Source of the DNA: Rhodococcus rhodochrous
GTDB lineage: Bacteria; Actinomycetota; Actinomycetes; Mycobacteriales; Mycobacteriaceae
DNA length: 64,000 bases
Direction of reading: 5' to 3'
Assembly: GCF_014854695.1 (NCBI RefSeq)
Contig: NZ_CP027557.1
Span: 434,001-498,000, forward strand
Part shown: positions 29,967-51,618 of the stretch, one piece after another
How positions within the stretch are numbered: the first letter of the stretch is position 1
Layout of the letters: the number at the start of each line of letters is the position of its first letter
Program-made: the position numbers and the translations under genes
The notes under the pieces: model-generated
Databases searched by the model: none
What the model was told of the DNA's origin: nothing
Seen by the model: only the letters and a program-made list of their open reading frames with translations

Positions 29967-30040
<74 letters not shown>

Positions 30041-38458: not shown

Positions 38459-39133
38459 TCAGCGAGCGCGACGCGCCAGACGCTCCGAGTCGGAGATCAG
38501 CACGCTCTTGCCCTCGAGACGCAGCCAGCCGCGGTGCGCGAAGTCGGCCAGGGCCTTGTTCACGGTCTCGCGGGACGCGCCGACGAGCTGCGCGATCTCT
38601 TCCTGCGTCAGGTCGTGCGTGACACGCAGGGCGCCGGCCTCCTGGGTGCCGAAACGCTGGGCGAGCTGCAGCAGCGCCTTGGCGACACGACCGGGGACGT
38701 CGGTGAAGATCAGGTCGGCGAGGCTGTTGTTGGTGCGACGCAGACGACGGGCCAGCACGCGGAGGAGCTGCTCGGCGATCTCGGGGCGCTGGTCGATCCA
38801 TGCCTTGAGCGCGTCGCGGTCCATGCTCACGGCGCGCACCTCGGTGACGGTGGTGGCGGTGGAGGTGCGCGGACCCGGGTCGAAGATCGACAGCTCGCCG
38901 AACATGTCGGACGGGCCCATGATCGTCAGGAGGTTCTCGCGGCCGTCGGGCGAACGACGCCCGAGCTTCACCTTGCCGGAGACGATGATGTACAGCCGGT
39001 CGCCGGGTTCACCCTCGTTGAAGATGACATGGCCGCGCGGGAAATCTACAGGCTGAAGCTCTTTGATCAGCGCCGCAACCGCCGAGGGCTCGACTCCTTG
39101 GAAGATGCCTGCTCTGGCCAGGACCTCGTCCAC
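38459..39133 (-). CDS. crp: cAMP receptor protein Crp/GlxR
   Basis: A 224-residue global regulator. The cyclic-nucleotide pocket spans residues 20-115 with [22 protein letters not shown] as phosphate-binding cassette; the dimer helix follows, then the HTH (about 170-200, [24 protein letters not shown]). It corresponds to Rv3676 and to GlxR of Corynebacterium. The GTG at 39133 has GGAG 6 nt upstream. Matching TGTGA-N6-TCACA-like sites are visible upstream of the epoxide hydrolase, whiB4, acs and dppA genes in this window. Confidence 0.95.
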
Positions 39134-49351: not shown

Positions 49352-49493
49352 TGTGACCGGCACCGCACCGTTGCATCGATATGCAACCCCGTCACTTTCG
49401 CTCATCGGTCGAATTCGCGCGACGAACGGCATTCGGGCACGACCGGTGAACCTCTCGTCCGTCCACCGCATGCGCGCCGGTACCGTCGTCGGC

Positions 49494-50243
49494 GTGACCG
49501 ACCCTCTTCAGCCTCTCGTCGACCTTCCGGGCGTACGCGACGCCGCCGACCGTGCCCGCGACGCGCTCGCAGAGGTGCATCGCCACCGAACCAATCGGCG
49601 TGGCTGGGCGAACACCGCCGCGGAGGCATCGGTGCGGGCCGCCCGCGCCTCGGCGTCGATCGACGGCGGATCGATGGAACTTCCGCAGCCGGGGGAGAGC
49701 GGCGACCCGATCCTGGCCGGAGCACTGCGGGTCGCGCAGTCGCTCGACGGTGATGCGCTCGGCAACATGGTCGCGACGTGGCGACGTGCCCCGCTGCAGG
49801 CGCTCGCCCGCCTGCACCTGCTCGCTGCCGCGGATCTGGTGGAGGACGCCGAGGAACTGGGTCGTCCGCGGACGGAACCGGGGGTCGCCGAGCGTCTCGA
49901 CGGGCTCGCGCAACTCGTCACGGGCGGGACGAACGCGCCGGCGCCGGTTCTCGCTGCGGTAGTGCACGGTGAACTGTCCGTTCTGAAGCCGTTCGGTGTC
50001 GCCGACGGCATCGTCGCGCGGGCCGCGTCCCGGCTCGTGTGCGTCGCGTCCGGACTCGACACGCGCAATCTGGGCGTACCCGAGGTCCACTGGATGCGCC
50101 GACTGCAGGCCTACCGCGACGGGGTCGACGGATTCGGGGCGGGAACCGTGGAGGGCGTCGGCGGCTGGGTGCTCTTCTGCTGCGGGTCGCTCGAAGCCGG
50201 GGCTCGTGAGGCCGGCTCGATCGCCGAGGCGTTCGCCGGCTGA
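49494..50243 (+). CDS. Degenerate Fic-fold protein (Rv3662c-like)
   Basis: A 249-residue protein. ASASIDGGS (52-60) resembles the Fic inhibitory motif SxxxE(G/N), and HGELSVLKPFGVADGIVARAASR (158-180) aligns with Fic HPFxDGNGRxxR. The catalytic His is replaced by Lys165 and the Gly-Asn-Gly turn by Asp-Gly-Ile-Val, so AMP transfer looks impossible. A structural or binding role is likely. The GTG at 49494 lacks a ribosome site and may be leaderless (TACCGT 7 bp before); an in-frame ATG at 49470 is an alternative. Confidence 0.65.
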   Translation: MTDPLQPLVDLPGVRDAADRARDALAEVHRHRTNRRGWANTAAEASVRAARASASIDGGSMELPQPGESGDPILAGALRVAQSLDGDALGNMVATWRRAPLQALARLHLLAAADLVEDAEELGRPRTEPGVAERLDGLAQLVTGGTNAPAPVLAAVVHGELSVLKPFGVADGIVARAASRLVCVASGLDTRNLGVPEVHWMRRLQAYRDGVDGFGAGTVEGVGGWVLFCCGSLEAGAREAGSIAEAFAG

Positions 50244-50284
50244 GTGCCGGGGGCTTCGCCGGCCGGGGCATCCCCGTCAAACTT

Positions 50285-50312
50285 CTGCACGCGAAACCCC
50301 CTGCACGCGAAA
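50285..50312. repeat. Direct repeat CTGCACGCGAAA x2
   Basis: CTGCACGCGAAA at 50285-50296 and 50301-50312, separated by CCCC, between the Fic-like gene and the end of the predicted Ms1-like RNA. Confidence 0.6.
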
Positions 50313-50612
50313 GCGGGTGGCATATCGATCGAGATCGATTCCGCCACCCGCTAGCACGGACGGTCCGAGTTACCATGCGTGCTGAAATGGGTTGTGATTC
50401 AACGGCCTCGGCGATGATCCGGGTATCGTCGATTCGTCCTCGCAACGGGTGCGGGGAACTCGTCTTCGAAAATCCGGAACTCGCAGGCCCACAACACTCG
50501 TGCCCTTATAGTGGCATCGGCTTCGCGTGGGTACTCGGTGTCCGTGCTGGGAAGAACAGTCGGGAGATCGAATCTTCTCTTCCGATTCGGTCTTGGCCTT
50601 CCGTCCTTCCGT
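50305..50612 (-). ncRNA. Predicted Ms1/MTS2823-type 6S-like RNA
   Basis: A gene-free interval of about 450 bp between the Rv3662c-like and Rv3661-like genes, exactly the place of the abundant MTS2823/Ms1 RNA of mycobacteria, which binds RNA polymerase core. Predicted length is about 308 nt, as for Ms1. GAGTTAC (50611-50617) and GGACGG (50601-50606) near the 5' end are complementary to 50367-50373 and 50358-50363 near the 3' end, allowing a long-range closing stem. A promoter lies upstream and a terminator hairpin at the end. It is on the HAD-gene strand, as in M. tuberculosis. The assignment is by position and structure, not by alignment. Confidence 0.72.
50312..50352 (-). terminator. Terminator hairpin at the end of the Ms1-like RNA
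   Basis: AGCGGGTGGC (50312-50321) pairs with GCCACCCGCT (50343-50352); the loop contains an ATCGAT palindrome. On the minus strand TTTCGCG follows. It may also terminate the convergent Fic-like gene. Confidence 0.6.
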
Positions 50613-50618
50613 AACTCC

Positions 50619-50647
50619 TTTCTACCCCGTCCGCGAGATGTCGGCAA
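50619..50647 (-). promoter_or_regulatory. Predicted promoter of the Ms1-like RNA
   Basis: On the minus strand TTGCCG (50642-50647), a 17-bp spacer and TAGAAA (50619-50624), giving a start near 50612-50618. Confidence 0.5.
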
Positions 50648-50699
50648 GCCCCCGACGGCAATGCTTCGTTTTCGATTTCGCGGTGAGCGGCCCTGAGTG

Positions 50700-51548
50700 T
50701 CAACGCATCCGGCGCTTGGCCAGTCGGCGGGTGGCACCCAGTATCAGTGCCGTTGCTCCGAGGGTCGCGGCGAGCGTCGCCAGGGCGCGCGGTGACGGAC
50801 GGGCACGACGTCCGAGTGGTACGGGCCGAGCGAAAGTGAGAACGGGCCAACCATTTTCGGTTGCCGCCCGGCGCAGCGGGCGGTCGGGGTTGACCGCGCG
50901 CGGATTGCCGACCTCGAGCAACATCGGCAGGTCGGTGGCCGAATCGGAGTACGCGTAGCTGCGGGAGAGGTCGTAGCCGTACTGCTCGGCGAGCTCGCGG
51001 ATCGCGACCGCCTTCGCCTCCCCGAAGCAGTAGAACTCGAGCTCGCCGGCGTACCGGCCGTCGACGATCCGCATCCGGCTCCCTGTGCTGTGGGAGGCAC
51101 CGAGTGTCCGGGCGATCGGAGTCACCACCTCCTGGCCGGACGCGGACACGATGATCACGTCGTGACCGCGGGCCCGATGATCGGCGATCAGGTCCTTCGC
51201 CTCCGCGTAGACGAGCGGCGTCACGACGTCCTGCAGGGTCTTCTCGACGATCGATCCGACCTGCTCGACATCCCATCCCTTGCACATGTGTGCGATGTGT
51301 TCGCGCATCCGGTCCACCCGGGCCTGATCGGCCGCCGACAACAGGTAGAGGAGCTGGGCGTAGGTGCTCTGCAGCACGGCCCGACGGCTGAGGAGACCCT
51401 CCTCGAAGAACGGCCGGGTGAACGCCAGCACGCTGGACTTGGCGATGACGGTCTTGTCGAGATCGAAGAACGCTGCGATGCGAGCCGAATCCGGTGAGCC
51501 CCCCGTCGACGGGGCCGGTCGGGACGGATTCACGGACGTGTCGGTCAC
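50700..51548 (-). CDS. HAD-superfamily hydrolase (HAD-IB, Rv3661-like)
   Basis: A 282-residue phosphatase-like protein. FFDLDKTV holds the nucleophile and acid aspartates, VSASGQ is motif II and YSDSATDLPML motif IV; the C-terminal ALATLAATLGATALIL segment is a hydrophobic tail. Members of this SerB-related subgroup act on phosphoserine-like or lipid phosphates, unspecified here. The GTG at 51548 (VTDTSVNPSR) is the chosen start. It lies between the two RNA genes. Confidence 0.85.
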   Translation of the reverse strand: MTDTSVNPSRPAPSTGGSPDSARIAAFFDLDKTVIAKSSVLAFTRPFFEEGLLSRRAVLQSTYAQLLYLLSAADQARVDRMREHIAHMCKGWDVEQVGSIVEKTLQDVVTPLVYAEAKDLIADHRARGHDVIIVSASGQEVVTPIARTLGASHSTGSRMRIVDGRYAGELEFYCFGEAKAVAIRELAEQYGYDLSRSYAYSDSATDLPMLLEVGNPRAVNPDRPLRRAATENGWPVLTFARPVPLGRRARPSPRALATLAATLGATALILGATRRLAKRRMR

Positions 51549-51587
51549 GATCACCACAATAGGGGCGCGCCGCGCCGGTGTTTGAAG

Positions 51588-51618
51588 TTGCAAGTAGTCA
51601 CGCCTAACGGTGTACTAT
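51588..51618 (+). promoter_or_regulatory. Predicted 6C RNA promoter
   Basis: TTGCAA (51588-51593) and TGTACT (51611-51616, 17-bp spacer) or TACTAT (51613-51618, 19 bp) place the start near 51624. Confidence 0.5.

Follow-up and report, generated by a model that had tools for sequence, protein, structure and literature searches.

An Ms1 RNA gene of Rhodococcus and a CRP-type palindrome in the Ms1 promoters of many relatives

The minus strand of the window (the whole 64,000-nucleotide stretch of DNA analysed) carries at 50612-50305 a gene that, judged by its sequence, is Ms1, a known kind of RNA. When the whole window was searched against Rfam, three matches exceeded their gathering scores, and Ms1 was the best of them (RF02566, minus strand 50612-50305; model positions 1-304, 166.2 bits, cut-off 162, E = 2.1e-42); the margin over the cut-off is small (4 bits), yet most matches in the family fall under it. 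The original prediction had proposed an Ms1/MTS2823-type RNA here and named a covariance search as its own test, which was run and which this full-length match passes. The gene is located at 484 kb on the 5.46-Mb contig, minus strand, and a genome search found no second Ms1, the next RF02566 matches reaching 16.9 and 15.1 bits.

We consider it highly probable (about 0.93) that the locus as a whole is a chromosomal Ms1 with its own promoter, a rod-like fold, core binding by homology and a loss of CRP input, the basis computed here being homology, fold with covariation, promoter conservation, synteny and single copy. On this explanation, Ms1 would probably be transcribed alone from a TTGCCG-17-TAGAAA promoter, and its RNA would form a long double-stranded rod that contains an internal bubble and lies between a 5' hairpin and a 3' terminal hairpin. 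By homology, it would bind sigma-free RNA polymerase core and keep up the polymerase stock in stationary phase; these two properties, binding to core and abundance in stationary phase, are inferred from studies of M. smegmatis, M. tuberculosis, S. coelicolor and R. erythropolis. In many relatives, Ms1 would be repressed by a cAMP-CRP box in the spacer that blocks polymerase, and the window's genus, which we take to be Rhodococcus sensu stricto, would have lost this input to Ms1 and kept CRP. The features on which this account draws are as follows.

50642..50647, minus strand: -35 element TTGCCG, conserved in the genus
50625..50641, minus strand: promoter spacer of 17 bases, the site of a CRP-type palindrome in most relatives compared outside the genus and without it in the genus
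50619..50624, minus strand: -10 element TAGAAA, conserved in the genus (TACAAA in some congeners)
50305..50612, minus strand: Ms1 RNA gene, 308 nt, from RF02566, fold energy and covariation over 43 sequences
50550..50610, minus strand: 5' hairpin (hairpin 1) of the minimum-energy fold, with a closing stem of 10 pairs (50610-50601 with 50550-50559)
50540..50548, minus strand: 5' arm of the long closing stem in the minimum-energy fold, pairing with 50353-50361
50353..50361, minus strand: 3' arm of the long closing stem, from the minimum-energy fold and covariation
50312..50352, minus strand: 3' terminal hairpin, a probable terminator with a weak T run, from fold and covariation
50700..51593, minus strand, start codon provisional: HAD-IB family hydrolase (Rv3661-like; TIGR01490, 198.5 bits, cut-off 98.3)
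49353..50243, plus strand: Rv3662c-like protein, convergent neighbour, with a homologue beside 53 of 55 canonical loci
38459..39133, minus strand: Crp/GlxR-type regulator (cNMP_binding 92.3 bits and HTH_Crp_2 62.2 bits, both over cut-off)

Identity, neighbours and fold of the RNA

The gap between Rv3662c-like and Rv3661-like genes in which the RNA had been placed is present as described, with exactly 456 bases (50244-50699) between the open reading frames ending at 50243 and 50700. The upstream neighbour, the HAD hydrolase, has a homologue in the 1.5-kb flanks at 53 of the 55 canonical Ms1 loci, a count that omits the overlapping L071 and the weak matches without either neighbour (L046 and L067-L070). 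The window's gene has the conserved neighbours of Ms1, chiefly the HAD-IB hydrolase; the Rv3662c-like protein has no match in Pfam or NCBIfam. According to PMC4191392, Ms1 lies near the replication origin and is transcribed towards it in 84% of cases. A 6C RNA (RF01066; 51645-51719, plus strand, 74.9 bits, cut-off 47) is located between the HAD-IB and Ssd genes, one gene from Ms1, a position described for mycobacteria and Streptomyces in PMC6582537, and a tRNA gene (RF00005, 65.2 bits) was found at 29967-30040 on the minus strand.

The gene shares with M. smegmatis Ms1/MTS2823 (RF02566) its full-length covariance match, fold, length (~304-308 nt), first-base A, promoter layout and HAD neighbour. 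It differs within the RF02566 family in that its match is 144 bits under the best family hit (310.2 bits, G099) and its spacer is without the CRP-type box seen in many relatives.

Folded alone, the RNA has a minimum free energy of -139.1 kcal/mol; shuffled sequences average -102.6 (z = -6.19), and none of 100 did as well. An RNAalifold consensus from 43 family Ms1 sequences (43 of the 55 canonical loci) comprises 69 pairs, with standard pairs in 95.4% of 2959 cells and both-side changes in 37 of the 69 pairs; shuffles give 23.8, and none of 500 was as high. Sliding the partner by 1-3 columns lowered pairing to 34-39%, a control that favours the consensus because the consensus came from the same alignment. 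Both-side changes affect 6 of the 9 pairs of the long closing stem (helix 3), while the outer helix of the terminal hairpin (helix 11) has 10 pairs, 4 invariant and 6 with both-side changes, and 98.1% of its cells are paired. The hairpin end predicted about 308 nt downstream is found at 50352-50312, supported by fold and covariation; a simple terminator scan gave 0 calls (chance 0.6), and the hairpin has a short T run only. The RNA has the rod-like fold, internal bubble and end hairpins with covariation of an Ms1.

Published descriptions of 6S RNA (RF00013) likewise show a polymerase-binding rod with an internal bubble, and the genome has no RNA over the 6S cut-off, as would suit a true 6S RNA that binds the sigma-A holoenzyme and templates product RNAs. 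We regard this identity as very improbable and rejected 6S membership on covariance: the best RF00013 match of the genome lies elsewhere and reaches only 17.2 bits against a cut-off of 46.4, while sequence, length and fold agree with Ms1 end to end. Furthermore, 6S binds holoenzyme, whereas Ms1 or its homologue binds the core without primary sigma in M. smegmatis, M. tuberculosis and S. coelicolor (PMC4191392, PMC11077062, PMC9130861). The label '6S-like' used in the original prediction is apt in the published sense of a shape resembling 6S, not as membership of the 6S family, and Ms1 is the assignment we retain.

Promoter and crossing pairings

The predicted 5' end of Ms1 is the A at 50612, which is also the first base of the Rfam match, and the minus-strand order is TTGCCG (50647-50642), the 17-base spacer, TAGAAA (50624-50619) and this A. 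The letters of the promoter TTGCCG-17-TAGAAA are present as had been claimed, and its hexamers are 95% identical to the window across the genus (mean over 17 sequences of the genus, counting the window itself, as for the other identities given here). Identity is 88% for the RNA and 63% for the spacer; upstream of the promoter it is 45% (33 bases), and past the RNA 39% (60 bases), so the RNA and the promoter hexamers are conserved beyond their surroundings. A generic sigma-70 promoter scan called 0 sites (chance 0.1), missing this promoter because the two hexamers agree with the sigma-70 consensus at only 8 of 12 positions and the -10 element is without the final T. A putative promoter of its own with a start A, and a probable terminator ~304 nt downstream, give the locus the layout of Ms1. 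Published work reports that Ms1 rises ~130-fold in stationary phase, leaves open the sigma factor or regulator of its promoter, and reports LexA at the M. tuberculosis Ms1 locus (PMC4191392); other regulators are therefore possible.

Two pairs of complementary segments joining the ends of the RNA had also been put forward as crossing pairings, which might represent alternative states or a pseudoknot in a switching RNA. Both exist letter for letter in the window, but as structure they are unsupported. In the first (50617-50611 with 50373-50367), 5 of the 7 five-prime bases are upstream of the predicted start and 2 at or downstream of it, so that it could form in the RNA only if transcription began further upstream. 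As aligned across the 17 genus sequences, this pairing is complete (7/7) in 8 but loses at least one pair in 9 (6/7 in 5, 2-4/7 in 4); a one-base shift restores it in 3 of those 4 poorly paired sequences (GTGTTAC with GTAACAC), a compensatory change that speaks in its favour. The second pairing (50606-50601 with 50363-50358) is intact (6/6) in 2 of 17 genus sequences, the window being one of them, and most of its bases are otherwise engaged in the minimum-energy fold, where hairpin 1 takes up its 5' side and the closing stem takes up 4 of the 6 bases of its 3' side. On the start position, the 2/17 conservation and the competing minimum-energy stems, we rejected a pseudoknot or switch, which we consider scarcely credible. 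What stands of the earlier observation is the gap, the promoter and the end hairpin, and of its interpretation the Ms1 identity; neither pairing stands as structure, nor do the alternative states.

Occurrence and compact copies

Full-length Ms1 matches were found in 17 of 18 genomes of the window's genus, the miss being a 75%-complete assembly, and 182 of 201 family genomes have a match at E ≤ 1. Most family members fall short of the RF02566 gathering score of 162 bits, which 37 of 201 genomes pass. One genus with 2-3 Mb genomes, probably Corynebacterium, accounts for 15 of the 19 family genomes without an Ms1 match, and Corynebacterium is described as being without Ms1 in PMC9130861. The window's gene is ordinary, because Ms1 has already been published in Rhodococcus, as well as in Nocardia and others (PMC4191392, PMC9130861). 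The Ms1 of R. erythropolis and other Rhodococcus is the same RNA in the published neighbourhood, and in R. erythropolis it is abundant in stationary phase, where it gives a prominent band (PMC9130861).

Sixteen genomes with two RF02566 matches were re-searched; 7 have a second full-length match (44.8-107 bits, 246-260 nt), and in the other 9 the second match reaches at most 29.1 bits or is gone. These compact copies (as in R. jostii, Smaragdicoccus and a Rhodococcus plasmid) belong to the same RNA family, mostly with a 5' ACGG start, and have a similar -35/-10 layout, but they differ from the window's Ms1 in being ~250 nt long, without the ~45-nt apical arm and without the HAD neighbour (0 of 7 loci in 1.5-kb flanks); none was found in this genome. 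The compact loci (L060-L066, L152-L154, L156 and L159) are often on Rhodococcus plasmids, with cmscan confirming copies on four Rhodococcus plasmids (74-106 bits) and on the 54.9-kb R. antarcticus plasmid (44.8 bits). The genus of G195, which we infer to be the R. opacus/jostii group, has compact Ms1 in 10 of 28 genomes, with at least one copy each. Counts by genome and by plasmid overlap, because the copies of G208/G209 coincide with those of pRB98 (R. oxybenzonivorans) and the R. pseudokoreensis plasmid. The compact form was rejected as a new find, since PMC9569102 already mentions that an additional Ms1 occurs in two mycobacteria, in R. jostii RHA1, in Smaragdicoccus and on a Rhodococcus plasmid, and the copies here appear to be the same as those.

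On pRB98, the compact Ms1 has plasmid-borne mihF, Lsr2 and cold-shock protein genes in its vicinity, and a weak cspA thermoregulator match (40.2 bits, cut-off 78) is located at a plasmid cold-shock gene (L153:3666-3978, minus strand). Three short Ms1 copies and no canonical one were seen in G212 (74% complete), and two short copies besides the canonical one in G209; several plasmids or assembly effects could account for these multiples. A blastn search of the phage collection with the window and one short copy as queries gave no phage-borne Ms1 at E ≤ 0.01.

Two records filed as plasmids, NZ_LR134469.1 and NZ_LN868939.1 (L155, L158), carry canonical Ms1, and L155, with HAD-IB and Ssd genes beside Ms1, is probably a mislabelled chromosomal contig. 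As plasmid-borne copies we rejected that of N. farcinica (H6), a full-length canonical match on a 2.66 Mb record in a stretch without annotation, and that of Tsukamurella (H7), whose record resembles a chromosomal contig, with HAD-IB and Ssd next to Ms1. Blastn matches on pRho-G13, pROB01 and R. opacus strain 9 (L157, L160, L161) were also set aside, unconfirmed by cmscan at E ≤ 0.01; nhmmer matched L157 over the 5' part only (45.8 bits, model positions 2-133) and gave no match to L160 or L161 at E ≤ 1e-5.

The CRP-type palindrome in the spacer

Promoters were compared over the 45 bases preceding each predicted start, for all canonical Ms1 genes that nhmmer scored at 90 bits or more in the loci collected, leaving out duplicates, matches starting past model position 6, short copies and L071. 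Each was scored by its best match to TGTGA-N6-TCACA at ten fixed positions, with a box called at 8/10 or more. Outside the window's genus, 70 of 96 Ms1 promoters have this CRP-type palindrome, compared with 0 of 96, 96, 96, 96 and 95 in five other 45-base segments of the same loci, such box counts not being independent events because the sequences are related. A looser pass, with no 90-bit floor and slightly different de-duplication, gave 72 of 97 promoters. In 72 of 75 cases (duplicates kept), the box begins five bases past the C of CTTG and, its start being fixed in this way, lies within the -35/-10 spacer. The window's genus has the box in 0 of 16 distinct promoters (from 19 loci), and the best palindrome match between -45 and -1 of the window's own Ms1 promoter is only 5/10.

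Of at least 541 confirmed loci, the named ones are the 80 that rank highest by HAD similarity. Among the matches listed, scores of at least 8 were obtained for 13/13 Nocardia, 2/2 Tsukamurella, 2/2 Williamsia and 8/8 Mycolicibacterium-labelled promoters. The ten Rhodococcus- or Prescottella-named loci of other groups among the matches listed score 7-9 (8 of the 10 at 8 or more), in contrast to the window's genus, and their Ms1 is 74-79% identical to that of the window, compared with 81-99% for genus members. CRP control is not universal, since 14 of 22 Mycobacterium-labelled promoters among the matches listed score only 5-6 and 4 of 13 in a second Mycobacterium set (g29) score 6-7, the other 9 scoring at least 8. 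Most compact-Ms1 promoters keep TTGC and TAGA-like elements, and 1 of 11, the R. antarcticus plasmid copy, has a box of 8 or more (start sites of L064 and L065 extrapolated).

The window's Crp/GlxR-type gene is ~11 kb from Ms1, and kin of its protein are the candidate regulator of Ms1 in relatives. Perfect TGTGA-N6-TCACA occurs at 10 sites in the window's own genome, while two control patterns, the reversed motif and a second palindrome with identical composition, occur at none; with the crp gene in the window, this suggests the loss of one site rather than of CRP. Within the window, 3 sites match CRP at 9/10, which is about chance expectation by a rough estimate.

The palindrome overlaps the promoter and is locked in position, features that would equally suit a sigma-factor or DNA-structure signal, or the site of another CRP/FNR-type protein. 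We think this unlikely, although less so than the alternatives rejected above, as the palindrome agrees with the CRP consensus TGTGA-N6-TCACA of E. coli, to which the M. tuberculosis motif is said to be similar (PMC4117774). Promoters without the palindrome keep similar -35/-10 elements, which argues that it is not needed for promoter recognition. If it is a CRP site, CRP would repress Ms1 in the box-bearing relatives, and the window's genus would have lost that control. CRP binding near a start site goes with repression, and CRP sites were reported upstream of three small RNAs (PMC4117774); CRP dependence has been described for another small RNA, MTS0997 (PMC3207917). A spacer CRP box in Ms1 promoters is apparently new: the literature searched, in which coverage of subscription journals is incomplete, yielded no earlier account of any CRP site there. 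Among the small RNAs of the CRP-site study cited above, ncRv13660c is presumably the neighbouring 6C RNA rather than the Ms1 homologue.

The gene itself adds little, and what is likeliest to interest specialists is the spacer operator together with its absence here: a position-locked box in most relatives compared, absent here despite CRP, offers a natural comparison on the open question of how the promoter is regulated. We hold it possible, at slightly short of even odds, that Ms1 is a direct cAMP-CRP target across Mycobacteriales whose operator was lost separately in the window's genus, in most compact copies and in many Mycobacterium species. If this is true, CRP in the 17-base spacer would shut Ms1 off in growing cells, and the stock of sigma-free polymerase would have been uncoupled from cAMP several times.
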